NCBI RefSeq assembly: GCF_024704385.1
Contig: NZ_JAJDFX010000002.1
Span: 2,294,001 to 2,358,000 of the forward strand
Direction: 5' to 3'
Source of the DNA: Cellulomonas sp. P24
GTDB taxonomy: Bacteria; Actinomycetota; Actinomycetes; Actinomycetales; Cellulomonadaceae
Length of the DNA stretch: 64,000 bases
Below are positions 10,351 through 46,850 of the stretch, piece after piece; positions within the stretch are counted from its first letter, which is position 1; the number at the start of each line of letters is the position of its first letter. The position numbers were made by a program, and so were the translations under genes. The notes below the pieces were generated by a model. The model ran no database searches. It was not told the origin of the DNA and worked only from the letters and a program-made list of their open reading frames with translations.

Positions 10351-10413
10351 CGCCGAGTGGAGCGAAACGCCACGACACGCCCGCGTGTCTGTGGCGTTTC
10401 GCTCCACTCGGCG
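10351..10413 (+). repeat. palindromic repeat copy A (hsp20/metE junction)
   Basis: A 63-bp near-perfect inverted repeat. Outer arms are CGCCGAGTGGAGCGA / TCGCTCCACTCGGCG, the variable arm is AACGCCAC / GTGGCGTT, and the core is GACACGCCCGCGTGTC, with one unpaired T on the right. It lies between convergent genes and could serve as a terminator for both. One of five family members in the window. Confidence 0.92.
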
Positions 10414-10429
10414 AGAGGGGTGGGGCTGG

Positions 10430-12781
10430 CTACGCGAGCGTCGCGCGGACGGCTCGGGTGGCCTCGATGATGTGCTCGAGCGAGGGCGTGACCTCCTCGT
10501 ACCGGCGGGTCTTGAGGCCGCAGTCCGGGTTCACCCACACCTGGCGCACGTCGATCGACCCGACGGCCGAGCGCAGGAGCTCCTCGACCTCGCCCTCGGA
10601 CGGCACGCGCGGCGAGTGGATGTCATAGACCCCCGGGCCGATCCCGCGCGGGTAGCCCGCCCCGGCGATGTCCCCGAGGATCTCCATCTTCGAGCGGGCC
10701 GCCTCGATCGAGGTGACGTCCGCGTCCAGACCGTCGATCGCGCCGATGATCTCGCCGAACTCCGAGTAGCACAGGTGCGTGTGGATCTGCAGGTCCTCCC
10801 GCACGCCGGCCGTCGCGAGCCGGAACGACGCCACCGACCAGTCGAGGTACGCCGGCTGGTCCGCCGCGCGCAACGGCAGCAGCTCACGCAGCGCCGGCTC
10901 GTCGACCTGGATCACCGGGATGCCCGCGGCCTCGAGGTCGCCGATCTCGTCCCGCAGCGCGAGCGCCACCTGGTTGGCGGTGTCCCCGAGCGGCTGGTCG
11001 TTCCGCACGAACGACCACGCCAGGATCGTCACCGGACCCGTGAGCATGCCCTTGACCGGCTTGTCCGTGAGCGACGCCGTGTAGGTGGTCCAGTCGACGG
11101 TGATCGGCGCCGGGCGCGACACGTCGCCCCACAGGATCGGCGGGCGCACGCAGCGCGACCCGTAGGACTGCACCCAGCCGTTCTGCGTGACGGCGAACCC
11201 GTCGAGGTTCTCCGCGAAGTACTGCACCATGTCGTTGCGCTCGGGCTCGCCGTGCACGAGGACGTCGAGGCCGATCTCCTCCTGGAGCTCGACCACGCGC
11301 TTGATCTCGGCGCGCATCTCGGCCTCGTACTGCTCGGTCGTGATCTCGCCCTTGGCGTGCGCGGCGCGTGCCTTGCGGATCTCCGGGGTCTGGGGGAACG
11401 AGCCGATCGTCGTCGTCGGCAGCGGCGGCAGGTGCAGCCGCTCCTGCTGTGCCGCCGCACGGGCCGCGTAGTCGCCGCGGTGGAAGTCCGCGTCGGTCAG
11501 GCCCGCAAGGCGTGCCCGCACCTCCGGACGCACGACGCCCGGCGCGGTCGTCCGGTTCGCGAGCGAAGCAGCCGACGCGGCGAGCTCGGCGGCCACCACC
11601 GCACGACCCTCCGCGAGCCCCTTCGCGAGCACCGCGACCTCAGCAACCTTCTGGTCGGCGAAGGCGAGCCAGCCGCGCAGGGTCGGGTCGAGGTTCGGCT
11701 CGTCCTCGACGTCGTGCGGGACGTGCAGCAGCGACGTCGACGTCCCGGCGAGGATGCGGGACTCCGGGCCGGCCAGCGCCTGCAGCGCCTCCAGGGTGTC
11801 GAGAGCGGCCCCGAGGTCGGCGCGCCAGACGTTGTGGCCGTCGATCACGCCGCCGACCACGGTCTTGCCGGCCAGACCGGCGACGGGACCGGTGGGAAGC
11901 GTGCCGCGCACCAGGTCGAGCGTGAGGCCCTCGACGTCGGTCGCCGCGAGCACCGGGAGCGCGTCGCCGAGACCGCCGTACGGCGCGCCGACGAGGATCG
12001 CCGGTCGGGCCGGACGCGCGAGGTCCGTCGCCAGCGCGGCGTACGCCTCGGTGAGTGCGGCGTAGACGCGGTCGGCGGGCACGTCGATCGCGTCCGAGAC
12101 CAGCGCGGGCTCGTCGAGCTGCACCCACGTGGCACCGGCCGCAGCGAACGCCTCGAGGAGCTGGGCGTACACGGGCAGCAGGTCCGCGAGGCGGTCGAGC
12201 GGGACGAAGCCCTCCGGGGATCCCTCGGCGGCCTTCGCGAGGGCGAGGAAGGTCACCGGGCCGACGAGCACCGGTCGGGTCAGCACGCCCTCGGCCAGCG
12301 CCTCCGCGAACTCCCGCACCGGGCGGTCGTCGGCGAAGCGGAACACGGTGCCCGGGCCGATCTCCGGCACGAGGTAGTGGTAGTTCGTGTCGAACCACTT
12401 GGTCATCTCGGCGGGGAGGTCGTCGCCCGCGCCGCGCGCCACCGTCGAGTACCCGGCGAGGTCGAGGCGGCCGTCGGCGTCGGCCAGGCCGGCGAAGCGC
12501 GCCGGGATCGCGCCGACGACCGTCGCGGCGTCGAGCATGTGGTCGTAGAACGAGAAGGCCGACGGGATCGCCGGGACGTCGGTCCGCAGCCCGAGCTCGG
12601 CCAGGCGCGTGCGCGTCCGGCGACGCAGCTCGGTCGCGGTCGCCTCGACGTCGGCGGCCGTCGCCCTGCCGGCCCAGAAGGCCTCGATGGACTTCTTGAG
12701 CTCGCGCCGGGGCCCGACGCGCGGGTACCCGAGGACGGTGCCGGAACCCAGGTCGGGAACGGCGGTGGTGGTGTCGGTCAT
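10430..12781 (-). CDS. metE: cobalamin-independent methionine synthase
   Basis: 5-methyltetrahydropteroyltriglutamate-homocysteine methyltransferase (783 aa, normal for the family), the last step of methionine synthesis. It has the duplicated barrel. The N-terminal half begins GYPRVGPRRELKKSIEAFW. The C-terminal catalytic half carries the zinc ligands in IHTHLCYSEF (about H669, C671) and NPDCGLKTR (about C754), and TTTIGSFPQT at the inter-domain junction. It starts one base after the metF stop (TGACATG), so metF-metE are coupled. Both lie downstream of a SAM-I riboswitch, consistent with shut-off when SAM is plentiful. Confidence 0.97.
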   Translation of the reverse strand: MTDTTTAVPDLGSGTVLGYPRVGPRRELKKSIEAFWAGRATAADVEATATELRRRTRTRLAELGLRTDVPAIPSAFSFYDHMLDAATVVGAIPARFAGLADADGRLDLAGYSTVARGAGDDLPAEMTKWFDTNYHYLVPEIGPGTVFRFADDRPVREFAEALAEGVLTRPVLVGPVTFLALAKAAEGSPEGFVPLDRLADLLPVYAQLLEAFAAAGATWVQLDEPALVSDAIDVPADRVYAALTEAYAALATDLARPARPAILVGAPYGGLGDALPVLAATDVEGLTLDLVRGTLPTGPVAGLAGKTVVGGVIDGHNVWRADLGAALDTLEALQALAGPESRILAGTSTSLLHVPHDVEDEPNLDPTLRGWLAFADQKVAEVAVLAKGLAEGRAVVAAELAASAASLANRTTAPGVVRPEVRARLAGLTDADFHRGDYAARAAAQQERLHLPPLPTTTIGSFPQTPEIRKARAAHAKGEITTEQYEAEMRAEIKRVVELQEEIGLDVLVHGEPERNDMVQYFAENLDGFAVTQNGWVQSYGSRCVRPPILWGDVSRPAPITVDWTTYTASLTDKPVKGMLTGPVTILAWSFVRNDQPLGDTANQVALALRDEIGDLEAAGIPVIQVDEPALRELLPLRAADQPAYLDWSVASFRLATAGVREDLQIHTHLCYSEFGEIIGAIDGLDADVTSIEAARSKMEILGDIAGAGYPRGIGPGVYDIHSPRVPSEGEVEELLRSAVGSIDVRQVWVNPDCGLKTRRYEEVTPSLEHIIEATRAVRATLA

Positions 12782-12782
12782 G

Positions 12783-13766
12783 TCAGCCCCTTGAAGGAAT
12801 GGACGTGGACGGTGGTGCCTGGACCCGCGGCGCATCGGCCACGTCGGGAGCCGTCGGGGCCCCTCCGCCGAGGTGTGCACCCTCGAGCAGGTCAAGTGCG
12901 GCTTGGTGCGTGTTGAACGTGTAGATGTGGACGCCCGGGGCGCCACCGTCCAGCACGCGGGTGACGAGCTCCACGCTGGCACGGATGCCGACGCGGTGCC
13001 GGGCGACGGGGTCGTCCTCGGCGGCGAGCGTGGCGAGGAGGTCACGGGGGACCTCGACGCCGGTCAGCTCCTGAACCCGCAGCAGGCGGGCCGGGTCGGT
13101 GGTGGGGATGATCCCCGGGATGATCGGGATCGTCACGCCGGCCTCGCGAGCGGCCGCGACCATGTCCAGGTAGCACTCGGCGTCGAAGAACACCTGCGTG
13201 ATCGCGAAGTCCGCCCCCGAGGCCTGCTTGTCGAGCAGGGCCTGGATGTCCTGGTCGCGCGTGCTCCCGGCGCCGGCGTTGCCCCGCGGGAAGGCCGCGA
13301 CGGCAACGGACAGTGGGCGGACGGCGCCTCGCACCTTCTGGGACGGCGACCCGGCGGCGCGGCGCGACTCGATCTTGCGGAGCAGGGACACCAGGTCGCT
13401 CGCGGTGTGCAGGCCGTCCGGGTGCGGGTGCCAGTCGGGCTGACCGACGGGCGGGTCGCCGCGCAGGGCGAGGAAGGACCGCACCCCCTCGTCGAGGAAC
13501 TCCTCGACGACCTGGGTGATCTCCGCGCGCGAGACCCCGACGCAGGTCAGGTGGGCGATCGGGTTGAGCGACGTCTCGCGGAGCAGGCGGCGGACGAGCG
13601 CGCGCGTGGTGTACCGGGTGGCGCCGGACGCGCCGTAGGTGACGGAGACGAAGTCGGGGCGTGCGGTCGCGAGGGCCTCGATGGTGGCCCAGAGCTTCGG
13701 CGCCGCGTCCGGGTTGCGGGGCGGGAACAGCTCGAAGGAGACGGTGGGCCGGTCGACGGCGGTCAC
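12783..13766 (-). CDS. metF: methylenetetrahydrofolate reductase
   Basis: A flavin-dependent reductase (327 aa) converting 5,10-methylene-THF to 5-methyl-THF, the methyl donor for MetE. Motifs include VSFELFPPR near the N-terminus, FVSVTYGASG, HLTCVG, LALRGDPP, and the FDAECYLDMVAAAREAG region. The C-terminal 30 residues are a Pro/Ala-rich tail beyond the family's usual end. The best start is GTG 13766: no closer in-frame ATG exists. It overlaps the stop of a 25-aa leader ORF (GTGA). If the leader ATG at 13840 is the true start, one base would have to be missing here. Confidence 0.92.
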   Translation of the reverse strand: MTAVDRPTVSFELFPPRNPDAAPKLWATIEALATARPDFVSVTYGASGATRYTTRALVRRLLRETSLNPIAHLTCVGVSRAEITQVVEEFLDEGVRSFLALRGDPPVGQPDWHPHPDGLHTASDLVSLLRKIESRRAAGSPSQKVRGAVRPLSVAVAAFPRGNAGAGSTRDQDIQALLDKQASGADFAITQVFFDAECYLDMVAAAREAGVTIPIIPGIIPTTDPARLLRVQELTGVEVPRDLLATLAAEDDPVARHRVGIRASVELVTRVLDGGAPGVHIYTFNTHQAALDLLEGAHLGGGAPTAPDVADAPRVQAPPSTSIPSRG

Positions 13767-13840
13767 GGAGCTGCCACGGGCCGTGCCGGACGGCGGCCGG
13801 TGACCTGAGGGTCGCGGTCGTCGCGGGTAGCGCTGGACAT
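13763..13840 (-). CDS. 25-aa leader ORF overlapping metF start
   Basis: ATG 13840 has GGAG 6-7 nt upstream, and that site lies in the 3' strand of the riboswitch P1 helix. The frame runs 25 codons and stops at TGA overlapping the metF GTG. This would let SAM control metF through leader translation and coupling. Alternatively it is the real metF N-terminus put out of frame by an indel, although no homopolymer is present between 13766 and 13840. Confidence 0.4.
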   Translation of the reverse strand: MSSATRDDRDPQVTGRRPARPVAAP

Positions 13841-13841
13841 G

Positions 13842-13941
13842 GTGCACTCCATCGGTCCTGGCGGAAGCACCCACGCCCGCGGGGAAGGGGGTTGCTGCGA
13901 CGTCACCGAGCCAGGTCTCTCGGTCGCTCTGGATGGTGCCG
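13842..13941 (-). promoter_or_regulatory. SAM-I (S-box) riboswitch upstream of metF-metE
   Basis: Reading the minus strand: P1 5' strand CACCATCC, then GAGAGACCTGGCTCGGTGA, GTCGCAGCAACC, GGGTGCTTCC and the P1 3' strand GATGGAG. The blocks GCAACC and GGTGCT plus the preceding GAGAGACCTGGC are S-box core positions. The P1 3' strand contains the GGAG that would serve as ribosome site, so control may be translational. Confidence 0.85.
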
Positions 13942-13943
13942 GA

Positions 13944-13973
13944 ATCATAGGCAGCCGTATCAGCATGTGACAA
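13944..13973 (-). promoter_or_regulatory. strong promoter of metF-metE
   Basis: On the minus strand, -35 TTGTCA (13973-13968), 18-bp spacer, -10 TATGAT (13949-13944); each hexamer matches consensus at five of six. Transcription would start about 13937, exactly at the riboswitch P1. Confidence 0.8.
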
Positions 13974-14087
13974 CGCGTGCCCATATGGTGGACGTGCCGT
14001 CTCGACCTGCGGTCACGCCGCAGACTCCCCGGCGACCGTTCGACCCGGACCGTCGCCGGACATGCGTCGGGCGCAGGTCGGGCCCGG

Positions 14088-14148
14088 GTCAAGTGGAGCG
14101 AACTGCCACGACACGCCCGCGTGTCGGTGGCAGTTCGCTCCACTTGAC
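14088..14148 (+). repeat. palindromic repeat copy B (after tag)
   Basis: A 61-bp inverted repeat with ends GTCAAGTGGAGCGA / TCGCTCCACTTGAC, variable arm ACTGCCAC / GTGGCAGT, the same core GACACGCCCGCGTGTC, and one unpaired G on the right. It is 40 bp beyond the 3' end of tag. Confidence 0.92.
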
Positions 14149-14188
14149 AGGTGTCGGGACGGGGTCGGACGGGGTTGGGCCGGGAGGG

Positions 14189-14812
14189 CTACGGCGTGGC
14201 AGCGGGGCAGCCGACGAGGTGGTCGTCGACCAACCCGCACGCCTGCATCGCCGCGTACGCGGTCGTGGGGCCGACGAACTGGAACCCGGCGACCTTGAGG
14301 GCCCGGGCGAGGGCCGCCGACTCGGTCGTCTTCGCGGGGACGTTCGCCCACGTGACCGGGCGCGCGCGGGGGCCCGCCGGGGCGAAGGACCAGAACAGCT
14401 CGTCGAGCGTGCGCCCGGAGTCCCAGAGTGCGACCAGCGCGCGGGCGTTGGCGATCGTCGCCGCGACCTTGGCGCGATTCCGCACGATCCGGGCGTCCGA
14501 CAGCAGCCGGGCGACGTCGTCGTCCCCGAACGTCGCGACGACGCGCGGGTCGAAGCCCGCGAAGGCCTCGCGGAAGGCCGGACGCTTGCGCAGGATCGTG
14601 ATCCACGCGAGCCCCGACTGGAACGCCTCCAGGCTCATCCGCTCGAACAGCTCGTGCTCGCCGTGCACAGCGCGACCCCACTCGTGGTCGTGGTACGCCG
14701 CGTAGAGCGGGTCGCCGTCGCCGAAGCACCGACCGGTCGGGAGCGTGCCGGCGGCGCCGGGTGCATCCGGTGCGCTGGGCGCGCCCGGCATGTCCGAGGT
14801 GCCGGCTGTCAC
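14189..14812 (-). CDS. tag: DNA-3-methyladenine glycosylase I
   Basis: A base-excision repair enzyme (207 aa) that removes 3-methyladenine. It shows the Tag family pattern: YAAYHDHEWG, SLEAFQSGLAWITILRKR, DARIVRNRAK, LWSF, and GFQFVGPTTAYAAMQACGLVDDHLVGC. The zinc site is complete: Cys in GRCFGDGD, His in YHDHEWG, and the His and Cys of DDHLVGC. The first about 20 residues are a variable Pro/Ala/Gly-rich extension, so the start may be internal (MPGAP). Its start overlaps the upstream small gene by 4 bp, suggesting cotranscription. Confidence 0.94.
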   Translation of the reverse strand: MTAGTSDMPGAPSAPDAPGAAGTLPTGRCFGDGDPLYAAYHDHEWGRAVHGEHELFERMSLEAFQSGLAWITILRKRPAFREAFAGFDPRVVATFGDDDVARLLSDARIVRNRAKVAATIANARALVALWDSGRTLDELFWSFAPAGPRARPVTWANVPAKTTESAALARALKVAGFQFVGPTTAYAAMQACGLVDDHLVGCPAATP

Positions 14813-15003
14813 GAGACGCGCCGGGCCGTGATGCGGCCGGCCGCCACCGCCTCGTCGGACAGCGTGAGATCGCCGTCGTCCGCCGGTGCGGCGAGATCGA
14901 GCAGAGCGGCGTGGACAGCCATGAGGACCTCGGCGCTCGGGGGACCGGCCGGTGCGCCGGGAGTGACACGCACCGCTCCCGTGCGGCTGTCCAGCAGATC
15001 CAT
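14809..15003 (-). CDS. small hypothetical protein upstream of tag
   Basis: A 64-aa protein of unknown function, mostly helical by composition (PSAEVLMAVHAALLDLA). ATG 15003 is chosen because a consensus-like -10 TAATAT (15016-15011, minus strand) lies 7 nt before it, predicting a leaderless transcript. The frame is also open to ATG 15024 and GTG 15060. The stop overlaps tag's ATG by four bases, so it is probably a real cotranscribed gene. No domain recognised. Confidence 0.55.
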   Translation of the reverse strand: MDLLDSRTGAVRVTPGAPAGPPSAEVLMAVHAALLDLAAPADDGDLTLSDEAVAAGRITARRVS

Positions 15004-15081
15004 GACCCGGATATTACGACGCATGACGGACGAATCGGCCGTCCGACGCACGTCGATCACGCGATCAGCCGGCCCGACCGA

Positions 15082-15294
15082 TCACGTCGTGCCGCGCCGC
15101 CGCAACGGTGTGCGGAGCCTGCGCGGACGGGTCCACTGCCTGGGGATGCCGAAGAACGGGGTCGGCGGCGGCACCGGGACACGGTCGAGCCCCTCGCGCA
15201 CGGCCTCGAGGACCTCCTCGTTGGGGGGCTCCAGGGGTCCCTCGAGCGCACGCGCCGCCATGGCCACGTCGTCGGGCTCGGGGATGGAGGTCAT
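15082..15294 (-). CDS. small hypothetical protein
   Basis: A 70-aa protein of unknown function: an acidic N-terminal half with EPPNEEVLEAVREGLDRV, then a basic tail RPRRLRTPLRRRG. The central EVLEAV segment resembles EVLMAV in the next small gene, so the two may be diverged duplicates. A TACAGT hexamer lies just 5 nt before the ATG; no ribosome site is evident. It lies 80 bp downstream of it and on the same strand. Existence is moderately supported. Confidence 0.45.
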   Translation of the reverse strand: MTSIPEPDDVAMAARALEGPLEPPNEEVLEAVREGLDRVPVPPPTPFFGIPRQWTRPRRLRTPLRRRGTT

Positions 15295-15379
15295 ACGCCA
15301 CTGTAGGTCTCGGCGACCGGGACGCGAGCGGTGGACGAGGGAAATTCATCCACTCGGCTGAGGCGTCGTGCGGCAGGCG

Positions 15380-18300
15380 TCAGGACAGGGCGGTCAACGC
15401 TGTCCGGATCCGCTTCTCCGACACCGGGACGGGTGTCCCGAGCTGCTGGGCGAAGAAGCTGACGCGCAGCTCCTCGAGCATCCACCGGATCTCCGCCAGC
15501 CCGGCCGTCCGTGCGGCATCCGGTGCGGCCGCTGCCGCGGCAGCCCTCGCGTCGTCGTAGGCGTCCTGGAGCTCGTGCACGCGCCAGGCGAGCTCCGCGT
15601 CCCGGTTCGGGTTCTCGGTCGCCTTCGCCAGTCGCAGCCGCGCGGCGCGGAGGTAGCGGGCAAGGTGGGGGAGCCGTGCGGCGCCGACCTCGCTCACGAA
15701 CCCCGCGTGGACGAGCGCCGCCGACTGGTCACGGATGTCGGTGAGGGTGTTGAGGAGGGCCAGGCTCGTCGCGGCGCGGACCTCACCGTCCAGCTCACGT
15801 GCGACGCCGAGCACCGTGACGACGTCGCCGACCACGCGGTGCACCGCGTCCTCGAGCCCCGCGCGGACGGCCGTGCGTGCGGCGGTCCACGTCGCCAGGT
15901 CGCGCGGGTCGATGGGCGACCCTCCCGGTCCGGGCGCCGAGCCGGCGCCGAGCAGGACGTCGATCGCGGCGAGCTGGACGTCGGCCACGAGGTCGTCGGT
16001 GGTGCGGTACGGGCTCGCGGCGAGCGTGAGCGCCTGCGTCCCGGACCAGCGGGTCGTGACGCGTGGCGTCGACAGCCCGACGTCGAGCAGGAGGAGCCGG
16101 CGCACGCCGCGGTGGTGCTCGGCGGACGCCCGCACCTCGTCACCGAGGACCCGGAGAGCGACGGTGGCGGAGCCGTCGCGCGCCGGCTCCTCGACGAGCG
16201 CGGGGTACCCGTGGATCCGGTGTCCCGACGCGCCGGTCGTGGTGACCAGCGTCGGCAGCTCCGCGAGGTCCGGCGGCCACGTCCGCAGTCCCGTCCTCTC
16301 GATGATCCCCGTTCCCGCGCCCGCCTCCGCCTCTGCCTCCGCGACCGCGCCCGTCGAGTGGAGCGAACTGTCACCGACACGCGGGCGTGTCGTGACAGTT
16401 CGCTCCACTCGACCGGTTGGGGAGGGGGTGGTGGGCGACGGCGGCGCGGCCTCGGTGGAGGAGCGGACCGCCGACCGCACGGCCGAGCGGACCGCGACCC
16501 GCACCGCGTCCTCGTTGCGCGCAGCGAGCTGCCGCTGCAGCGCGAGGAGGCTCTTGCCCTCCTCGACGACGACCGACGTCCCGGCGCGCTCCTGCTCGAC
16601 GCGGAACGTCATGCGCAGGTGCGCCGGCAGCCGCTCGTCGTCCCACGCGTCGGCGGGGATCTCGACCCCGCGCAGAGCGCGCACGGCCGCCGCGACGTCG
16701 TCGTGCAGGGACGTCGCCATGTCCCCGGCACGGACGGTGTCCACCCACGACGGCAGGTTCGCGGACATCCACGCGACGATCTCGCGGGCGACGTCGGGCG
16801 CCGGCACGAGCTGCACGCGGACGGACTTCGGGAGCGACCGGATCAGCGCCGTGACGAGCTCGGCCTGCAGACCGGGCACCATCCGGTCGAAGCCCTCGGG
16901 CCGGACCCGGTTCAGGACGACCAGCGGGACGTGGACCGTCACACCGTCGGCGTCGGTCCCAGGCTGGAACTGGTAGCTGAGCGGCAGCTCGAGATCACCC
17001 TGCGGCCACAGCGACGGGAACTGCGACTCGTCGACCTCCTCGACCTCCTCCGGCAGGAGCAGGTCGAGGGTGAACGACAGCAGCGACGGGTCGCTGCGGC
17101 GTGCGGTCTTCCACCACGTGTCGAAGTGCCGGGCCGAGACGACGTCGGCCGGGATCCGCTCGTCGTAGAAGTCGAACAGCACCTCGTCGTCGACCACGAG
17201 GCCGCGTCGTCGGGCCTTGGCCTCGAGCCGCTCCGCCTCGGCGAGCAGCTCGAGGTTGTCGTGGAAGAACGCGTGGTGCGTCGTCCACTCGCCCTCGACC
17301 AGCGCGTGCCGGATGAACAGCTCCCGCGCGTGGGCCGGGCCGACCTTCGCGTACAGGACCCGCCGCTGCGTGACGATCGGCACGCCGTACAGCAGCACCT
17401 TCTCGTAGGCCATCGCGGCCCCCTGCTTGGTGGACCACGCCGGCTCCGAGTACGTGCGCTTGACCAGGTGCGACGCGAGCTCCTCGGCCCACTCCGGCTG
17501 GATCCGCGCGACGTCGCGCCCCCACAGCCGTGACGTCTCCACGAGCTCCCCCGCCATCACCCACGCCGGGGGCTTCCGGGCGAGACCGGACCCGGGGAAG
17601 ATCGCGAACCTGGCACCCCGCGCGCCCAGGTACTCGTTGCGCGTCTGCCGCCTGGCCGCCCCCTTGGCGTCCGGCGCCGAACCGCCCCGCGCACCGACGC
17701 GCACCTCGGTGACCTCCTGCATGCCGATCTGCGAGAGGAGACCGGCGAGCAGGGACTGGTGGATGCGGTCGGAGTCCCACGACAGGCGGCGGTCCGGCTC
17801 GGCATCGGTGCCCCGCGGCCGCTTGCCACCGGGCGCCGCGGGCGACGTGCCGGTGCCGGCGGGCGTGCCGCGCGTCGTCGCGGAGGCGGCCGCCTGCTCG
17901 GCGGTGAACGCGGCGGCCCCCGGCGCCGAGCGACGGACCGTGCCCGACGCCGGCCCGCTCGACACGGTCGCGCGGGCCCCCGGGGGCGCACCGTGATCCC
18001 GAGCGGCTTGGCCATCTCGCGCAGCTGCGTGACGACGTCCTGCCACTCGCGCAACCGCAGGTAGTTGAGGAACTCCGCCCGGCACATCCGACGGAACGCG
18101 CTGCCGGAGAGCTCGCGCTGCTGCTCCTTCACGTACTCCCAGAGATTCAGGTAGCTCAGGAAGTCCGACGTCGGGTCGTTGAAGCGGGCATGGGCCTGGT
18201 CCGCCTGCGCGCGCTGCTCGGCCGGGCGTTCGCGCGGGTCCTGGATCGACAGCGCAGCCGCGATGATCATGACCTCGCGGGCGACGTCCCTCCGCCCGCC

Positions 18301-20416
18301 CTCGACGATCATCCGGCCCAACCGTGGATCCATCGGGAGCTGGGCGAGGGCACGGCCGACGTCGGTGAGCCTGCTGCGGCTGCCGTGGCGGGCGTCGTCG
18401 CGTTCGTCCGGGCCGCCGGTCTCTCCGCGGTGGCCCTCGGGTCTCGTCGAGCTGTCGGCGGGTGCTGCTCCGGTCGCCGTCGCGGGCTCGGTCGCCGTCG
18501 TGGGTCCGGTTGTCGTCGTGGCCGCTGCTGCGGAGGCGTCGGCCGTCGCGGGTTCGGAGGCCGCGGGCACGACCGTCGTGCTGGGCTCGTCGGCCGGAGA
18601 GGTCCCGAGCGCGCCGAGCTCGGTGAGCAGCTGCACCCCGTCGCGGATCGCGCGGGTGTCGGGTGGGTCGACGAACGGGAACCGGGCGACGTCACCCGGC
18701 GACGACGCCACCCCCCACCGCGACCATCTGCAGGATCACCGACGCGAGCGACGTCCGCAGGATCTCCGGCTCGGTGTACTCCGGTCGTGAGGCGAAGTCC
18801 GACTCGGAGTACAGGCGGATCGCGATGCCGTCGGCCACCCGCCCGCACCGACCGGACCGTTGGTTGGCGGAGGCCTGGGACACGGGTTCGATCGGGAGGC
18901 GCTGGACCTTGGTGGCCTTCGAGTAGCGCGAGATGCGCGCGGTCCCCGGGTCGATCACGTAGCGGATCCCCGGGACGGTGAGGGAGGTCTCGGCGACGTT
19001 GGTGGCCAGGACGACACGACGGGTCGCGTGCGGCTCGAACACCCGGTGCTGGTCGGCCGAGGACAGTCGCGCGTACAGCGGCAGGATCTCGACGGCATTC
19101 GCCGGCGCCGCCCGTCCTGCGCCTGCGACGCGGGGTCCGAGGTGTCCGACGAGCGCCTCTTCCGTGTCGCGGATGTCCCGCTCGCCGGCCAGGAAGACGA
19201 GGATGTCCCCCGGTCCTTCGGCGCACAGCTCGTCGACGGCCTCGCAGATGGCGGTGAGCACGTCCCGCTCCTCGCCGCGCCTCTCCCCACCCTTCGCTCG
19301 AGTGGAGCGATCTGCGACGACACGCCCGCGTGTCGGTCGCAGATCGCTCCACTCGGCGGGGGTGGTGGGGGTGGCGGAGGTGGGGTCGGGTGGTGGGGGG
19401 TCGGGGACCAGCGGGCGGTAGCGGATGTCGACCGGGAACGTCCGGCCGGTGACCTCGATGACGGGGGCGGGCGTGCCGTCGGGGTGCCCGGGGCTCGGTG
19501 GGGACGCGAAGTGCGCGGCGAACCGCTCGGAGTCGATCGTCGCCGAGGTGATGACGACCTTCAGGTCCGGACGTCGAGGGAGCAGCTGCGTCAGGTACCC
19601 GAGGATGAAGTCGATGTTGAGCGACCGCTCGTGGGCCTCGTCGATGATCAGGGTGTCGTAGGCGAGCAGCATCGGGTCGCGCTGGATCTGCGCGAGCAGG
19701 ATGCCGTCGGTCATGACCTTCACGAGCGTGTTCTCGCCCGAGGTGTCGGTGAACCGGACCTGGTACCCGACCGTCTCGCCGAGCGTCGTGCCGAGCTCCT
19801 CCGCGATGCGCTCCGCGACGGTTCGCGCGGCGATGCGGCGCGGCTGCGTGTGACCGATCTGCCCGTCCCGCCCGCGGCCGAGGTCCAGCGCGATCTTCGG
19901 GATCTGGGTGGTCTTCCCCGAGCCGGTCTCGCCCGCGACGATCACGACCTGGTGATCGCGGATCGCCGCGGCGATGTCCTCCCGGCGTGCCGAGACGGGG
20001 AGCTGCTCGGGATACGTGATCGGCGGGAGCTCGACCGCGCGGCGCGCCTCGGCCCGTGCCGTGCGGGCACGTGAGCCCGAGGAGCGGCGTGCGGTGGGTG
20101 CGCTCGTCCGGCCCGCAGGGCGATCGGTGCGGGGGCGGCCGCTCCGGCGCTGGTCGGGATGGCGGGTCTGGTGCGGGGGTGTCGGACCGGCGGCGGGGGT
20201 GGCGTCGGCGTCGCCGGGTGCGGGGACGGTGCCGCGGGCGGGCCCGTCCAGGTGGGCGGACTCGTTCGGGCGAACGGTGCGATCTGGGTCCGTGGAGCCG
20301 ACGTGGGAGTCCGGCGAGTCCGACGGCCCCCGACGTCTCCGGCCGGAGCCGCCGCGACGCCGTCGGGGCGGCCGGGGCGCGTCCGACGCCTGCCCCTGGT
20401 CCGGTCCTGTGCTCAC
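15380..20416 (-). CDS. hrpA: ATP-dependent RNA helicase HrpA (two apparent frameshifts)
   Basis: A DEAH-box RNA helicase acting on stalled translation complexes in the family. Reading starts at GTG 20416 with an about 125-residue Arg/Pro-rich tail. It then has Walker [10 protein letters not shown] (162-170), DEAH (259-262), SAT (291-293) and motif [10 protein letters not shown]. The first frame closes at 18692, the middle (from [10 protein letters not shown] to ITV) lies in a second frame (about 17985-18711), and the C-terminal half (from [16 protein letters not shown] to the conserved end SEKRIRTAL) in a third (15380 to about 17985). One extra G in a G6 run (18711-18716) and one missing base at C5G5 (17977-17986) would restore a single protein of about 1,675 aa. 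Both sites are homopolymers, so sequencing error is more likely than decay. Two palindromic repeats are translated in frame within linkers. Confidence 0.9.
16353..16413 (-). repeat. palindromic repeat copy C (inside hrpA)
   Basis: A 61-bp inverted repeat with ends GTCGAGTGGAGCGA / TCGCTCCACTCGAC and variable arm ACTGTCAC / GTGACAGT. Core and bulge are in the opposite orientation to copies A, B and D. In hrpA it reads [19 protein letters not shown] with no stop, inside a Pro/Ala/Glu-rich linker. Confidence 0.92.
19299..19354 (+). repeat. palindromic repeat copy D (inside hrpA)
   Basis: A 56-bp inverted repeat with ends CGAGTGGAGCGA / TCGCTCCACTCG, variable arm TCTGCGAC / GTCGCAGA, core GACACGCCCGCGTGTC. 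In hrpA it reads [19 protein letters not shown] with no stop, between the first helicase lobe and the segment ending in [13 protein letters not shown]. Confidence 0.92.
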
Positions 20417-20681
20417 AACACACCATTGTCGCCGTTGCCCTGCGCGGATCGCGCCGTGTTTTCCCCACAGCCCCCGTCCGCCCCCGCCGCGCCCGAGCCC
20501 ACGACCCCGATCCGGGAGCGTCCGGGGAGCGGCCCCGTCCGCGCTGGGCGCCGCACGTGGTGACAGTGGGGCGCGTGTGGCTGGTGAGGTGGCGCACGCG
20601 TCACAGGCACATCAATCGTCACGGCCGCGGCGCGGAGCGTGCAGCGACGGAGCGCGCAGCGATGGGGTGCGGAGCGCGGGG

Positions 20682-21533: not shown

Positions 21534-21561
21534 GTCGACAATGCTACATATCAATGCGCGA

Positions 21562-21590
21562 ACTATAGCACAGAAATGCGATTTCCGCAA
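21562..21590 (-). promoter_or_regulatory. promoter of the methyltransferase gene
   Basis: On the minus strand, TTGCGG (21590-21585), 17-bp spacer, TATAGT (21567-21562), with TG two bases before the -10 in an extended -10 arrangement. It lies in the most AT-rich stretch nearby. Confidence 0.7.
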
Positions 21591-22588: not shown

Positions 22589-22599
22589 ACCGCCATCGC

Positions 22600-22706: not shown

Positions 22707-24386
<1,680 letters not shown>

Positions 24387-33636: not shown

Positions 33637-33670
33637 AGCTGGCTCCTGATCGTCTGCGGGTGCGGGCCTC

Positions 33671-33701: not shown

Positions 33702-33718
33702 CCGCCTATTCTCGCCCC

Positions 33719-34704: not shown

Positions 34705-34713
34705 GGTGGGCGC

Positions 34714-35463: not shown

Positions 35464-35580
35464 GGGACACTGGCGCCCGACAGGTGCAGCGGCGGTCGTC
35501 GAGGTGATCCCTCCGTGACCGGGCAGGTCGGCCCCGGTCAGTGCGTGCGCACGCCCTCCCGCGAAACGGAGCCCGACGCC

Positions 35581-36318: not shown

Positions 36319-36334
36319 CCCCGTCACCCGGCAC

Positions 36335-36428
36335 GGAGGCGGCGACACGTCGTGCGGAGGCGGCGACACGTCGTGCGGAGGCGGCGACACGTCGTGCGGA
36401 GGCGGCGACACGTCGTGCGGAGGCGGCG
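36335..36428. repeat. 21-bp tandem repeat, 4.5 copies
   Basis: Four exact copies of GGAGGCGGCGACACGTCGTGC (described as unit 36335-36355, then at 36356, 36377 and 36398) and a half copy to 36428. Each contains the palindrome CGACACGTCG. It lies upstream of the large helicase gene. Confidence 0.95.
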
Positions 36429-36516
36429 TGCGGTGCGATGACACGCGTGCGCAGCCGGGCCTTGTACCCTGCGCGTTGACGCACGCGTGGTGCACGCGGA
36501 CGGGAGGGCGACGCGG

Positions 36517-42028: not shown

Positions 42029-42035
42029 TGGACGG

Positions 42036-43127
42036 GTGACAGGCGAGAGGGGCGGCAGACCGTCATGGTCGCGGACCCTTGCGCCCGGTGATCGCGCCGC
42101 ACCGCTGTCGAGCGTCGTCCCGGCTCGCGCGCTCGGATTCATCCTGCTGGCAGGAGCTGCGCTCGGGGCGTTGAACCTCGGCGTGGACGGGGTGCTGCGA
42201 CCGGGGGTCGGCCGGATCGTCTACGGCACGATGATGGCCCTGCTCGTGGTGATGGGGATCTACTTCCTCCGGCTGCCGCGGCTGAGCTACCGCGCGGTCG
42301 CGCTGCTGATCGCGTACGGCAACGCGGTGTACGTCGTCGTCGCGCTCACGACGCTGAACGCGCACCTGTACGCCGGACCGCTGATGCTCCTGCTCGCCCT
42401 CACGGCGGGGGCGAGCTTCCTGGAGGCGCGAGGGTTCGTCGTCCAGCTGCTGGTGGTGCCGCCGATCTGCTGGGTCGGGCTCTCGAACTCCGAGCTCAAC
42501 GGTCGCGCGCTGATGATCCAGGTCGTCGTGCAGAGCGGGGTGCTGATCCTCGCGGCGCTGCTCGTCTACGGCCTGCGCATGCGCAGCGAACGGCTCCTCC
42601 ATGAGACCGAGCTGATGTCGACGACGGACCCGTTGACCGGGCTGTCGAACCGCCGGGCGGTCGAGATCGAGGCGGAGCGGCTCTGGCGTGAGGTCGACGA
42701 GGAGCGGGTGCTCCTCGCGGCGTTCGTCCTCGACCTGGACAGCTTCAAGGTCCTGAACGACAGCCACGGCCACGCGGCAGGCGACGAGGCGTTGCGGCTC
42801 GTCTCACGCGCGATCCGGGACTCGGCCGGGTCGGACGCCGTCGTCGCACGGATCGGTGGCGAGGAGATCCTGGTGCTCCGTCCGGTCGCGAGCGTCGCCG
42901 AGGTCCTCCTGCGCGGCGAGCAGCTGCGGTGCGCGGTCGCCGAGGCGCCGCTCCCGTACCCGCTGACCGCGTCGATCGGTGTCGCGACCTCCGCGACCCC
43001 CGACGCGGGGGCAGCGGTCGAGGGGCTCTGGCGTCTGGTGGACACCGCCGACATGGCGATGTACGAGGCCAAGCGTGGCGGCGGGAACCGGGTCGTGACC
43101 GCCGGGGAGCTCGACCTCGCGCCCTGA
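42036..43127 (+). CDS. membrane-bound diguanylate cyclase (GGDEF)
   Basis: A 363-aa protein: five or six transmembrane segments (about residues 20-185), then a GGDEF domain (about 200-360) beginning TDPLTGLSNRRA. The active-site motif is GGEEI (about 273-277), a functional variant of GGEEF. The position of the inhibitory RxxD site reads AGSD, so product feedback by that route is unlikely. GTG 42036 is 6 nt after CATGAT, leaderless. It starts 8 bp after the helicase stop and may be partly cotranscribed. Expected product: c-di-GMP. Confidence 0.88.
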   Translation: MTGERGGRPSWSRTLAPGDRAAPLSSVVPARALGFILLAGAALGALNLGVDGVLRPGVGRIVYGTMMALLVVMGIYFLRLPRLSYRAVALLIAYGNAVYVVVALTTLNAHLYAGPLMLLLALTAGASFLEARGFVVQLLVVPPICWVGLSNSELNGRALMIQVVVQSGVLILAALLVYGLRMRSERLLHETELMSTTDPLTGLSNRRAVEIEAERLWREVDEERVLLAAFVLDLDSFKVLNDSHGHAAGDEALRLVSRAIRDSAGSDAVVARIGGEEILVLRPVASVAEVLLRGEQLRCAVAEAPLPYPLTASIGVATSATPDAGAAVEGLWRLVDTADMAMYEAKRGGGNRVVTAGELDLAP

Positions 43128-43165
43128 CGCACCGGGGAGCCCCGGCGGCTCCTGACCCCTGACGC

Positions 43166-43210
43166 ACCGCGGCCCCCGGCTCCGCGCGGGGCGGGGACGG
43201 GGGCCGCGGT
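43166..43210. terminator. bidirectional terminator between GGDEF and FKBP genes
   Basis: A 12-bp perfect stem, ACCGCGGCCCCC (43166-43177) with GGGGGCCGCGGT (43199-43210), between convergent stops. Confidence 0.75.
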
Positions 43211-43225
43211 CGGCGATGCCGTCGG

Positions 43226-44167
43226 TCAGGAGGCGTCGAGGATGTCGACGACGAAGACCAGGGTCGACCCCGCCGGGATGGAGCCCTGCGCGGTGTCCCC
43301 GTAGCCGAGCGACGGCGGGATGACCAGCAGGACCTGGCTCCCGACGGTCTGGCCGACGAGCCCCTCGTCCCAGCCCTTGATGACCTTGCCGGCGCCGATC
43401 TGCGTCGACAGGGGCGATCCCTTCCAGGACGTGTCGAACTCGGTGCCGTCCCAGAGCCAGCCGCTGTAGTTCACGGTGATCGTCTGGCCCGACTGGACGG
43501 CGACGCCGGTGCCCTTGATGAGCACCTGGCTCACCAGCGAGGTCGGGGCCGTCGTGGTCGGCTTCGTGAGGGTGGGTTCGCCGTTCGCGGCGAGCGTCAC
43601 CTTCGGAAGGTCAGCAGGGGGCGTGACGGCCGTGCCCGAGGCGCGGGTCGGGATGACCTTGGCGCCGACGACCTCGATCGCCATGACCGTCGTCGTGCCG
43701 TCCGACCCGGGCACGGCGAGCAGGAACCTGACGCCGACCTTCTGGCCAGCGAGCACCTCGTTCATCGCGGGGACGAGGCCCGTGTCGCCGAGCTTGATGG
43801 TCTCCGGCACGGAGCCGTAGTTGGTGCCGGACTCGGTGCCGTCCTTGCCGCTGACCGCGACGTAGTTGATCTGGAGCGACTCGCCCTCGGTCAGGGCCGC
43901 ACCGGTTCCCGGGGTCTCGATGCGCGCGACGGGCGCGGTGACGGTGAACGGCTGGGTGAAGGTCAGCGTGGGCTTGGCGCCGGCAGCGCCCTCGACCTTG
44001 ACGGCCGCGAGGGCCGCCACGTCGGCGGCGGTCGCGGTGGCCGCTGCGGTCGGTGCCGTCGTCGCCGCGGTCGTTGCCGAGTCGGTCGGCGAAGTGCTGC
44101 CCGACCCCGAGCACGCAGCGAGCAGGAACAGGGGAGCGAGCAGAGCTGCGGCCATTCGTCGGCGCAC
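43226..44167 (-). CDS. FKBP-type peptidyl-prolyl isomerase lipoprotein
   Basis: A 313-aa exported lipoprotein: lipobox LAACS with Cys19, a Thr/Ala-rich linker, then two FKBP-like domains. The C-terminal one (about 215-313) is complete, with VNYSGWLWDGTEFDTSW, VIKGWDEGLVGQTVGSQVLLVIPPSLGYG and the family end LVFVVDIL. The N-terminal one (about 75-170) keeps INYVAVSGKDGTE and the loop before it but lacks most active-site aromatics, so it is probably non-catalytic. It acts outside the membrane on folding proteins. GTG 44167 follows AAGGA at 9 nt. Confidence 0.92.
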   Translation of the reverse strand: MRRRMAAALLAPLFLLAACSGSGSTSPTDSATTAATTAPTAAATATAADVAALAAVKVEGAAGAKPTLTFTQPFTVTAPVARIETPGTGAALTEGESLQINYVAVSGKDGTESGTNYGSVPETIKLGDTGLVPAMNEVLAGQKVGVRFLLAVPGSDGTTTVMAIEVVGAKVIPTRASGTAVTPPADLPKVTLAANGEPTLTKPTTTAPTSLVSQVLIKGTGVAVQSGQTITVNYSGWLWDGTEFDTSWKGSPLSTQIGAGKVIKGWDEGLVGQTVGSQVLLVIPPSLGYGDTAQGSIPAGSTLVFVVDILDAS

Positions 44168-44271
44168 GGGTCACGTCCTTCATCGTCGGCAGTCCGCCGT
44201 CACGTGGGTGCTCTCGAGTCATCGATCGCACGACGGACGGGCCTACGGTACGGGGTCACACTGTGTGCACG

Positions 44272-44631
44272 CTAAGAGAGGATCGCCTCGGCGTTGGCGG
44301 TGATCCAGTCCATGAGCGGGAGCAGGCGTGCGGTGAGCTCATGCCCGCGCTCCGTCAGGGCGTAGTCGACGCGGGGCGGGATCGTCGGCCGGGCGTCGCG
44401 CGAGACGAACCCGTCGGCCACGAGCACCCGGAGCGTCTGGGCGAGCATCTTCTCGCTGATGCCCTCCACGACCCGCCGGAGCTCGCCCCACCGCAGCGAC
44501 TCCTCGGACAGGGCGACCAGGACCAGCACACCCCACTTGCTCGTGACGTGGTCGAGGACGATGCGGGACGGGCACTGCGCAGGCAGCACCCCGTCCGTGA
44601 GGAGTCGGGAGAGCGGGTGGCTGTCGGCCAT
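44272..44631 (-). CDS. HxlR family transcriptional regulator
   Basis: A 119-aa winged-helix regulator of HxlR/DUF24 type: SKWGVLVLVAL, LRWGELRRVVEGISEKMLAQTLRVL and VDYALTERGHEL are diagnostic. A single N-terminal Cys (C20, in AQCPSR) is at the position used for thiol or quinone sensing in YodB-like members. It is divergent from the NmrA-like gene, a common pairing in which the regulator represses its neighbour until electrophile stress. Confidence 0.9.
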   Translation of the reverse strand: MADSHPLSRLLTDGVLPAQCPSRIVLDHVTSKWGVLVLVALSEESLRWGELRRVVEGISEKMLAQTLRVLVADGFVSRDARPTIPPRVDYALTERGHELTARLLPLMDWITANAEAILS

Positions 44632-44638
44632 CTCAGCA

Positions 44639-44659
44639 ACTTACCTGAAAGTGGGTACT
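44639..44659. promoter_or_regulatory. candidate HxlR operator dyad
   Basis: ACTTACC (44639-44645) and GGTACT (44654-44659), an imperfect dyad in the 103-bp divergent promoter region, 8 bp upstream of the HxlR start. Confidence 0.35.
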
Positions 44660-44734
44660 GCGTCTGAGGAAGTATTGGCGCCGCCGCACGGTTCTTCCGT
44701 CGTCAGCACCGTGCCACCGAACGGAAGGACCCCC

Positions 44735-45598
44735 ATGTCAGTCGTCGTCACCGGAGCCACCGGGCACCTGGGCCGCCTGGTCGTCGAGAACCTGCTCTCC
44801 GGCGGGACGGCCCCGGGCGACGTGGTCGCGACCGGTCGCCGCGTCGACGCGCTCACCGACCTCGCCGCGCGCGGCGTCCAGGTGCGGCGCGCGGACTTCA
44901 CCGAGCCGGCCTCCCTCGTCGCCGCGTTCGACGGGGCCGACGACGTCCTGCTCGTCTCGGGCAGCGAGGTCGGCCGCCGCGTCGAGCAGCACGCGAACGT
45001 CCTCGAGGCGATCCGGACGGTCGGCGCGCGACGCGTGGTGTACACGAGCGCGCCGAAGGCCGACACCTCGCCGCTCGTCCTCGCACCGGAGCACAAGGCC
45101 ACCGAGGAGCTGATCCGCGCGTCGGGGCTCGCGTTCACGATCCTGCGCAACAACTGGTACACGGAGAACTACCTCGGCGACCTCGCCCAGGCGCGCGCCA
45201 CCGGCGAGCTCGTCTCGAGCGTCGGCGACGGCAGGGTCGCGAGCGCGCCCCGCTCGGACTACGCGGCCGCCGCGGCGACCGTCCTGGCGACCGGCGGCCA
45301 CGACGGCGCGGTGTACGAGCTCTCCGGCGACGTGGCGTGGGACTTCGACGACCTCGCGGCGGCCTTCGCGACGGTCATCGGCCGGCCGGTCGTGCACCGC
45401 AGGGTGACGCCGGAGGAGCGGCTCCAGGGCCTGCTCGCGGCGGGACTCGACGAGGGGACGGCGGGGTTCGTCGTCGCCCTCGAGGCGAACACGCGCGACG
45501 GGCTCCTCGCCGGCACGAGCGGTGAGCTCGGACGGCTCCTCGGACGCCCGACGGTGGGACTGGTCGAGGCGCTCACGGCTGCGGCCCGGGAGGCCTGA
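44735..45598 (+). CDS. NmrA-like NAD(P)-binding reductase
   Basis: A 287-aa atypical short-chain dehydrogenase of the NmrA/QOR2 (YtfG) type. The dinucleotide motif is GATGHLG (7-13), with RRADFTEP, VVYTSAP and ILRNNWYTENYL as family blocks. It likely reduces quinones or senses NADP redox state. Ribosome site GGAAGGA lies 5 nt before ATG 44735. Divergent HxlR regulator and an intervening dyad suggest induction by quinones or other electrophiles. Confidence 0.88.
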   Translation: MSVVVTGATGHLGRLVVENLLSGGTAPGDVVATGRRVDALTDLAARGVQVRRADFTEPASLVAAFDGADDVLLVSGSEVGRRVEQHANVLEAIRTVGARRVVYTSAPKADTSPLVLAPEHKATEELIRASGLAFTILRNNWYTENYLGDLAQARATGELVSSVGDGRVASAPRSDYAAAAATVLATGGHDGAVYELSGDVAWDFDDLAAAFATVIGRPVVHRRVTPEERLQGLLAAGLDEGTAGFVVALEANTRDGLLAGTSGELGRLLGRPTVGLVEALTAAAREA

Positions 45599-45660
45599 GC
45601 CACCTGCGGCTGTCCCGGACGGCGCGACCCGGCGAGGCGGACCCCTGCGAGACTGTGCGC

Positions 45661-46782
45661 ATGGCGACCTCCTCCACGCCCCACAGCGGTGCGGCTCAGG
45701 CACCACCCGGACCGCCGCGTCGTCGGCCCAGCCGCGCCGAGCTGCGCCGGTGGCGGCAGTACCTCGCCGACGAGCAGGCCGAGGCGGCGGTGTACCGGGA
45801 CCTCGCGGGGCGGCGGACCGGCGAGGAGCGGGAGATCCTGCTCGCGCTCGCGGACGCCGAGGGGCGGCACGAGGCCCACTGGCGTGAGCTGCTCGGCGAG
45901 GACGTCGGACGCCCGCGTCGCGGTGACATCCGGACGCTCGCGCTCGGCTTCCTCGCGCGGCGGTTCGGCTCGGTGTTCGTGCTGGCCCTCGCCCAGCAGG
46001 CGGAGTCGCGGTCGGCGTACGAGAAGGACGCCGACGCGACCCCGACGATGGCAGCCGACGAGCGCATCCACGAGGAGGTCGTCCGCAGCCTTGCCGCGCG
46101 GGGCCGGAGCCGGATCTCGGGCTCGTTCCGGGCAGCGGTGTTCGGGGCCAACGACGGGCTCGTCAGCAACCTGGCCCTCGTGCTCGGCATCGGCGCGAGC
46201 GGGGCCACGACGCGCGTGGTGCTGCTGACCGGGCTCGCGGGGCTGCTCGCCGGTGCGCTGTCGATGGGTGCAGGCGAGTACGTGTCGGTCCGCTCCCAGC
46301 GTGAGCTGCTCGAGGCCTCGGCTCCGAGCGTCCGGGCGAACGCCGCGGTCCCGTACCTGGACGTCGACGCGAACGAGCTTGAGCTGGTCTACCGTGCGCG
46401 CGGCATGTCCCCGGAGGAGGCGCGCGAGCGTGCCGCGCACGTCCTCCGGGCGGACTCCGGCGAGGAGGTCCACTCCGCGACGGACATCGACCACCACGAG
46501 GCGATCGGCACCGGGCTGGGTGCGGCGCTGTCGAGCTTCTGCTTCTTCGCGTCGGGCGCGGCCATCCCGGTGGTCCCCTACCTGGTCGGGCTCGCCGGTA
46601 CCCCCGCGGTGCTGGTGTCCGCGGGGCTCGTCGGCATCGCCCTGCTCGGGACGGGTGCGGTGGTAGGGGTGCTCTCCGGGGCCTCGCCCCTCAGCCGCGC
46701 ACTGCGTCAGCTCGCGATCGGCTACGGAGCCGCCGGCACCACCTACGTGCTCGGCCTGATCTTCGGCGCCACCACCAGCTGA
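45661..46782 (+). CDS. rubrerythrin-VIT1/CCC1 fusion iron or manganese transporter
   Basis: A 373-aa fusion. Residues about 30-145 are a ferritin-like rubrerythrin domain with Glu/His helices (LADEQAEAAVYRDLA, EGRHEAHW, DERIHEEVV). Residues about 155-373 form a VIT1/CCC1 transporter beginning FGANDGLVSNLALVLG, with GALSMGAGEYVSVRSQRE and a DxDANELELVYRARG loop. The N-terminal domain may bind or oxidise iron before export. ATG 45661 is 6 nt after GAGACT, leaderless. Convergent with an esterase; repeat copy E lies between. Confidence 0.9.
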   Translation: MATSSTPHSGAAQAPPGPPRRRPSRAELRRWRQYLADEQAEAAVYRDLAGRRTGEEREILLALADAEGRHEAHWRELLGEDVGRPRRGDIRTLALGFLARRFGSVFVLALAQQAESRSAYEKDADATPTMAADERIHEEVVRSLAARGRSRISGSFRAAVFGANDGLVSNLALVLGIGASGATTRVVLLTGLAGLLAGALSMGAGEYVSVRSQRELLEASAPSVRANAAVPYLDVDANELELVYRARGMSPEEARERAAHVLRADSGEEVHSATDIDHHEAIGTGLGAALSSFCFFASGAAIPVVPYLVGLAGTPAVLVSAGLVGIALLGTGAVVGVLSGASPLSRALRQLAIGYGAAGTTYVLGLIFGATTS

Positions 46783-46789
46783 CCCCCTC

Positions 46790-46850
46790 GTCAAGTGGAG
46801 CGACCTGCCACCGACACGCGGGCGTGTCGTGGCAGGTCGCTCCACTTGAC
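46790..46850 (-). repeat. palindromic repeat copy E (after VIT1 gene)
   Basis: A 61-bp inverted repeat with ends GTCAAGTGGAGCGA / TCGCTCCACTTGAC, variable arm CCTGCCAC / GTGGCAGG, and core in the reverse orientation (as copy C). It begins 8 bp after the VIT1 stop. Confidence 0.92.

Follow-up and report, generated by a model that had tools for sequence, protein, structure and literature searches.

Dispersed, covarying palindromes at gene ends in Cellulomonas sp. P24 and other Cellulomonadaceae

A 64,000-nucleotide stretch of the Cellulomonas sp. P24 genome (contig NZ_JAJDFX010000002.1, positions 2,294,001–2,358,000; hereafter the window, whose own numbering is used below) contains five long palindromes that share a core and outer arms while differing in the middle arm, which raises the question of whether a hairpin is selected, or copied, as a structure. 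All five palindromes listed by the initial annotation are present as placed, except that the ends of two, given as 10351–10413 and 19299–19354, are corrected here to 10352–10412 and 19297–19357. The core, the outer arms, and the single unpaired base match the earlier description, and the middle arms, different in every copy, are paired in each of the five. With moderate confidence, we interpret these palindromes as members of a dispersed family in Cellulomonadaceae, a variant resembling repetitive extragenic palindromes (REPs) and Rickettsia palindromic elements (RPEs), that is used as bidirectional transcript-end hairpins and occasionally spills over into coding sequence. The analysis demonstrates the copies, their covariation, the positions they occupy, and at least one gain. 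The five copies in the window are as follows:

10352–10412, + strand: palindrome copy 1 (pairing reaches 10351/10413), flanked by Hsp20-like and metE-like genes (named by eye) that converge on it, the stop codons of which lie at 11 and 17 bp
14088–14148, + strand: palindrome copy 2, 40 bp past the stop codon of a methyladenine glycosylase gene, and upstream of an S-adenosylmethionine (SAM) riboswitch
16353–16413, − strand: palindrome copy 3, within the reading frame of an hrpA-like helicase gene, in its DUF3418 part
19297–19357, + strand: palindrome copy 4, also within the hrpA-like reading frame, in the helicase part of the gene, with one mismatch and one G-T pair at the outer edge of the arm
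46790–46850, − strand: palindrome copy 5, flanked by VIT1-family and alpha/beta-hydrolase genes in convergent orientation, with their stop codons 7 and 65 bp away

A search of the P24 genome (4.42 Mb in two contigs) for the arm-core-arm pattern, allowing up to three mismatches, returned 37 places, compared with none for the reversed control; a covariance model trained on 30 of these 37 copies identified 43 places (86 rows, each place being reported on both strands). The unit is 61 nt long (62 nt in two copies) and comprises GTC[AG]A[GC]TGGAGCG, a variable middle arm, the core GACACGCCCGCGTGTC, which has a few variants, and the mirrored arm, with one odd base after the core in most copies. Its ends, GTC[AG]..[TC]GAC, are paired. 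Predicted folding energies lie between −48.8 and −63.0 kcal/mol for 42 of the 43 copies, the one degenerate copy being predicted at −27.7 kcal/mol. The orientation of the odd base relative to gene direction appeared mixed by eye. A free-standing half-arm repeat was rejected as a candidate: in the 350 kb fetched from this genome, 67 of the 68 TCRAGTGGAGCG matches lie inside palindromes and the remaining one adjoins a palindrome.

The arms of the copies change together. For 30 aligned copies (28 distinct), the covariation score was 0.250, compared with 0.087 for shuffled alignments, none of 500 shuffles reaching the observed value; paired cells amounted to 94.8% (84.9% in shuffles), and both-sided changes occurred at 12 of the 28 pairs, while a fifth measure, that of further pair types, was matched by 22 of the 500 shuffles. 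Over the 19 outer pairs of all 43 copies (817 cells), 789 cells are Watson-Crick, 8 are G-T, and 20 are mismatched, with 33 copies flawless throughout; some of the mismatches appear to stem from copies with the odd base placed elsewhere. The word GTGGAGCG is otherwise fixed in these copies and, when altered, is altered on both sides (pairs 6 and 10); the distance from its start to the start of the core is 17 bp, both in P24 and in the copies from Actinotalea fermentans. The core and the word are kept as sequence, and the arms as structure.

The family extends beyond this strain. Among 59 genomes of relatives, 12 (P24 included) contain a match at E ≤ 0.01, and in a 200-genome sample of the family 27 genomes (again including P24), from 7 of 25 genera, match at E ≤ 1e-5, the copy numbers per genome in this sample being 'at least' values. 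Carriers include the named strains A. fermentans DSM 3133 and Cellulomonas pakistanensis NBRC 110800. NCBI places A. fermentans in Cellulomonadaceae, and one element locus shares 3,061 identical bp with an A. fermentans contig. Across genera, the core CGACACGC..GCGTGTCG is constant and the arms are genus-specific. Fitted to the model, and therefore leaning toward the structure, 38 copies taken on a single strand from 36 loci in other genomes gave 925 Watson-Crick, 29 G-T, and 87 other cells of 1041, against a shuffle mean of 647 and maximum of 685 Watson-Crick cells (200 shuffles); both-sided changes were present at 24 of 28 pairs, compared with a shuffle mean of 17. In the draft genomes of two congeners, G001 and G002, 21 rows correspond to 13 places at E values of up to 10. 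A class-wide search with the core pattern matched 30 of 394 genomes, more than two matches being present only in P24 (30 places) and in one other genome, G106 (10 places). The core pattern alone was rejected as a marker, with one reversed-control match in each of 11 of the 394 genomes, few of which belong to the same family as P24.

Other identities for the element were also rejected. No plasmid records were matched, and no viral contig carried the strict pattern, the only viral match being 25 nt long (E 0.4) in one Gordonia phage (two records). A known RNA family was likewise discarded: at the Rfam gathering score, the window contains only a glycine riboswitch (1868–1960, +) and a SAM riboswitch (13846–13939, −, 5′ of the gene at 12783–13766), and when eight loci were searched against Rfam at E values of up to 5, the best match on a copy reached 33.6 of 100 bits, with a model for a microRNA.

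Genes were called with a purpose-written gene finder employing a codon model trained on 143 open reading frames (ORFs). Only 7 of the 43 copies lie in or overlap genes, although genes make up 86% of the fetched stretches; of the 36 intergenic copies, 31 are next to a gene 3′ end, at a median of 15 bp. A position within 40 bp behind a stop codon is occupied by 25 of the 43 copies, whereas random intergenic placement gave a mean of 5.9 and a maximum of 14 (500 trials). Twelve of the 42 copies that could be placed are between convergent genes, and 16 of 19 copies between tandem genes are nearer to the upstream stop than to the next start. The arrangement is similar in other genomes, for which 37 copies, drawn mainly from the best-scoring loci, were classified: 17 are between convergent and 18 between tandem genes, none between divergent genes, one is at a locus edge, and one was called in a gene, probably because the start of that gene was placed too far upstream; stop codons lie at a median distance of 12 bp. 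Unrelated long hairpins also occur in this genus. A near-perfect one is present in the window at 49671–49723, and others (L090, 738–789; L097, 9026–9073; L171, 8693–8749; L175, 7642–7685) are positioned close behind stop codons, without U-tracts. Two DUF6318 genes (L091, 1398–1799; L096, 6008–6418) are each flanked by closely spaced copies of the palindrome.

The flanks of the 43 copies have a marked composition, C-rich ahead of the hairpin and G-rich behind it on either strand. Read outward from either side (86 flanks), G makes up 61% and T 9% of the first 10 nt, and T is present at positions 1–4 in 0, 3, 2, and 6 flanks, respectively. A four-run G3+ motif was found in 19 of the 86 flanks (60 nt each), whereas 116 stretches downstream of element-free stops had none in the sense and two in the antisense direction, and 148 upstream of starts had 1 and 0. 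The stem runs on for a few bases past the unit in a copy-specific manner (leading match 1.79, compared with 0.84 for mismatched flanks; p 0.0002). A symmetric extension of the stem through the C-rich and G-rich flanks was rejected, there being no in-register pairing past ~5 nt; 20-nt identity gave p 0.16, and local flank alignment gave p 0.96 and 0.92.

We compared 17 of the P24 copies with contigs of G001 and G002. Fifteen sites were alignable, and their states, as we read them, range from kept to empty. The hairpin is kept in at least one congener at five sites (contig positions 581554, 2304352, 2478335, 2803157, and 3257220) and is a decayed remnant at two (2093281 and 2313297). The element is absent from both congeners at four (2127655, 2308088, 2484411, and 2486798), including the site of copy 2; the gene neighboring 2486798 is also missing in G001, and 2127655 has a short hairpin of other sequence in G001. 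Four sites are ambiguous (2123355, 2310353, 2486247, and 2534202), among them that of copy 3. Both-sided changes at kept sites number two at 2803157 in G002, and three and one at 2478335 in G002 and G001, respectively, with predicted folds of −40 to −56 kcal/mol; in G001, the stems at 3257220 and 2304352 are perfect (−43 and −45 kcal/mol). At the hsp20/metE site, all three species have a hairpin, that in G001 being related to the P24 copy and that in G002 having a different sequence. Judged from these alignments, the kept congener hairpins are the best sign, at a handful of sites, of selection as hairpins at gene ends. The proposal that the hairpin is selected and/or copied as a structure is borne out by 43 copies genome-wide, by covariation, seen within P24 and also at part of the orthologous loci, and by sites occupied in P24 and empty in its congeners.

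Within the genome, the inner 53-mer is identical in five sets (11 copies) with unrelated flanks, and copies have probably been added in this lineage. Two of these sets show fully paired differences between copies at outer pairs 2 and/or 4; such differences, and the copy-specific stem extension, fit either selection or a rewriting of one arm from the other. Orthologous empty sites were too diverged for insertion joints to be placed, at which a target-site duplication, as expected of a miniature inverted-repeat transposable element (MITE) of an insertion sequence, was looked for. The earlier description of the unit as possibly mobile stands with respect to outcome, copies having reached new sites, but not with respect to a mobilizing enzyme, which was not found among the scanned neighbors or by a genome-wide search for the Y1 (RAYT-type) transposase domain PF01797 (Y1_Tnp; RAYT, REP-associated tyrosine transposase). 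That search gave no matches in P24, while control matches were obtained in 5 of 14 genomes.

Five copies lie within called genes: two in the hrpA-like gene, and one each in genes for a copper-type P-ATPase (copA), a phytoene-desaturase-like protein (crtI), and a BrkB membrane protein, where the copy is past the BrkB domain; two further copies overlap gene 3′ ends. Domains of the host genes were scanned, and the names copA, crtI, and hrpA-like are our reading. The P-ATPase and crtI frames are intact, and the copA and hrpA-like frames are open through the copies, those in copA, in crtI, and at copy 3 being flawless over the outer 19 pairs. The crtI product is 23 residues longer than in G002, and the palindrome sits in the extra stretch, which G002 lacks; matches to crtI in genomes of three other genera (G009, G010, and G015) are broken at the same stretch, where the pieces are separated by just 15, 33, and 48 nt. 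Because the extra stretch is missing in G002 and in three other genera, the crtI copy is, on this sequence comparison, an in-frame gain in the P24 lineage. The copA matches of several other genera are also broken at the place of the palindrome, with almost nothing between the pieces, and the congeners have longer, diverged linkers there.

The hrpA-like gene, which hosts two copies, is represented in the window by the following features:

15380–18085, − strand: 3′ part of the hrpA-like gene (OB_NTP_bind, DUF3418), host of copy 3
18692–20416, − strand: 5′ part of the hrpA-like gene (DEAD, Helicase_C), host of copy 4
19358–19407, + strand: G-rich tract beside copy 4, an example of the outward G-rich flanks of the family

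The frame (15380–20416, −) is broken twice, near 18.7 kb and 18.0 kb, compared with a single open frame in G001; the gene in the window may be a pseudogene or contain sequencing indels, and it is therefore a weaker example of a tolerated insertion. At the site of copy 4, G002 has a recognizable but badly paired remnant in the same codons, in which 8 of 27 pairs are broken and both-sided changes are absent, and G001 has a weaker one. The comparison indicates that this insertion is old.

Together, these features are consistent with the following scheme. At gene ends, each strand would give a very stable RNA hairpin (predicted at about −49 to −63 kcal/mol) that would end, block, or protect transcripts arriving from both sides, and, because no U-tract is present, it would act as a hairpin alone. 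Selection for a transcript-end hairpin would keep the arms paired as they diverge, and new sites would arise through copying of the 53–61 bp palindrome, by ectopic conversion or by an enzyme. Once in a while, a copy would enter a protein linker in frame and could decay there.

Several points weigh against this scheme. Termination or 3′-end protection is something that we infer, as are selection as the cause of the pairing and the involvement of any enzyme. A U-tract after the hairpin is absent, and a simple terminator scan of 9.5–21.5 kb of the window called none of the four copies there. That the in-gene copies of copA, crtI, and the hrpA-like gene are well paired also disfavors a terminator role; the 'shared terminator' of the initial annotation accordingly agrees with the gene-end position, but the missing U-tract and the copies in these genes do not fit a pure terminator. 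G-T pairs are rare in both alignments (8 of 817 and 29 of 1041 cells), as expected for a constraint at the DNA level or on two strands rather than for a one-strand RNA helix. Kept sites also show broken pairs (three at 2803157; none and three at 2478335 in G002 and G001, respectively), and the hairpin at 581554 in G002 still folds (−42 kcal/mol), although with other pairing, 12 of 28 pairs being broken in an ungapped comparison. All empty sites other than crtI were compared without an outgroup, and some could be losses. No transposase was present among the 30 neighbor or host proteins scanned of 79 called, the scanned neighbors being housekeeping-type genes, and Y1_Tnp was the only type searched genome-wide. 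Finally, the scheme accounts for neither the clustering of copies near the origin nor the 20-bp word arrays described below.

An unlikely alternative, though the one we would consider first, is a mainly selfish palindrome whose arms would stay complementary without selection, each serving to rewrite the other through fold-back synthesis or template switching (quasi-palindrome correction), with survivors found where they do the least harm, behind genes. Template-switch changes that extend arm identity in imperfect inverted repeats are a described process, according to the accessible part of one report (PMC3820800). The copies with identical 53-mers and paired changes at outer pairs 2 and/or 4 (2093281/2127655, and 2679331 compared with 2468972/2486798) are as expected from such rewriting, as are the copy-specific stem extension, the small number of one-sided intermediates and G-T pairs, and the flawless outer 19 pairs of the copies in copA, crtI, and hrpA (copy 3). 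However, gene-end copies in the congeners still fold, while the hrpA remnant in G002 has lost pairs, and the presence of a hairpin of different sequence at hsp20/metE in G002 points to selection at gene ends, albeit from few sites. Sequence conservation of the core and the word across genera also speaks against this alternative.

We consider somewhat less probable still a DNA-level site, in which GTGGAGCG and the core would be bound by a protein, or a cruciform would be targeted, with the origin-proximal cluster as part of the function; the protein might, for example, act on supercoils between convergent genes, as gyrase does at the bacterial interspersed mosaic elements (BIMEs) of E. coli. 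In P24, the chromosome quarter closest to dnaA holds 29 of the 43 copies (Kolmogorov-Smirnov p 1e-9), and when neighboring copies are merged, 16 of 28 clusters are in this quarter, compared with 7 expected (p 2e-4). The cluster spans 1.93–2.80 Mb of the contig containing the window. A terminus-region site was rejected, since dnaA (2,171,012) lies within the cluster. Beside the palindrome, the word GTGGAGCG (or GCGGAGCG) is repeated in 8 of 18 loci from other genomes, and 15 of the 17 spacings measure exactly 20 bp; these loci (L208, L209, L211, L213–L215, L226, and L234) are all from A. fermentans or its genus. The arrays are direct and lead into the palindrome, with mirrored arrays behind it in some loci; the bases between words vary in several, and one array is a plain tandem repeat. 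The clustering around dnaA and the 20-bp arrays hint at a DNA-level partner, and the conservation of word and core, their 17-bp spacing, and the strong preference for Watson-Crick over G-T pairs are in accord with one. The nucleoid or nuclease target suggested by the initial annotation would likewise be compatible with the clustering near dnaA. By contrast, recognizable copies are few in the congeners, no replacement family was found in 175 kb of congener sequence by a hairpin finder tolerating no bulge, the copies listed for the complete G010 chromosome are spread round it (position relative to dnaA not set), and the binding protein is hypothetical. Loci L104–L110 of G010 also contain asymmetric arrays of half-arm units (~20 bp each) next to palindromes, as well as pairs of palindromes ~210–240 bp apart.

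More doubtful again is a structure-copied DNA unit of an undescribed kind, with a fixed recognition core CGACACGC..GCGTGTCG and a word GTGGAGCG that recurs in Actinotalea every 20 bp (two helical turns), in which the arms would be regenerated by fold-back synthesis at each copying, and a putative conserved actinobacterial protein would bind the unit at gene ends, mainly around the origin, and both spread and use it. Independent, ordinary intrinsic terminators that are alike by convergence, without copying, would explain the gene-end position and the other unrelated long hairpins at gene ends, but are very improbable given the identical 53-mers, the common exact core, the 43 copies, the empty congener sites, the in-frame insertions, and the absence of a U-tract.

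Returning to dispersed transcript-end palindromes, several known systems are comparable. The REP/BIME elements of E. coli are palindromes behind genes that are credited with mRNA 3′ protection and gyrase binding; compared by description, they share the position of the P24 family and differ from it in length. Actinobacteria also have intrinsic terminators without U-tracts, in which a GC-rich hairpin directly follows stop codons. The P24 hairpins likewise follow stops, yet they are repeated, copied to new sites, and present in genes; of the canonical intrinsic terminator they have the stable hairpin after the stop but not the U-tract. GTAG REPs and their RAYTs are similar in being repeated palindromes at gene ends, but the GTAG REP/REPtron has an unpaired GTAG on a 20–40 bp palindrome, whereas the 61-bp unit has paired ends and no GTAG tag. 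A RAYT-driven GTAG REP was rejected, as no Y1_Tnp is present in the genome.

A further likeness is to the CGTC REPs, which the accessible text of their description presents as dispersed palindromes near the 3′ ends of convergent or tandem genes, with no dedicated transposase, some being intragenic, including two in one gene, and RNA helicases being among the host genes (PMC3733652). Many P24 copies begin with GTC or CGTC, and they too are near gene 3′ ends, sometimes intragenic, and in a genome without Y1_Tnp, the one transposase type searched genome-wide. The CGTC REPs differ, in that account, in having an 8–9 bp stem and an unpaired CGTC tag and in often forming inverted dimers; the P24 unit is a single stem of ~27–28 pairs with GTC paired to GAC. 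The word Actinobacteria is absent from the text of that paper, which treats the spread of transposase-less CGTC REPs as an open question (PMC3733652). RPEs, as the available part of their description has it, are long stem-loop repeats that occur, as here, both between genes and in frame within protein genes; they are 105–146 bp long and from Rickettsia, whereas the units here are 61 bp, mainly at gene ends, and from Cellulomonadaceae, the comparison being by description (PMC2229807). Because the tag, stem, and transposase features of REPs and the size of RPEs are lacking, we regard the family as a variant of these elements rather than as a member. At the level of titles and abstract openings, no earlier description of it in Cellulomonadaceae or actinobacteria was found in the literature.

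The result is an actinobacterial palindrome family with dozens of copies in named strains, a constant core and genus-specific arms, identical copies at distant sites, empty sites, and in-frame insertions. Such variation in copies, arms, and sites makes copying, arm correction, and function at gene ends each testable, and the family may add to what little has been described of how transcript ends are marked without a U-tract in very GC-rich bacteria.

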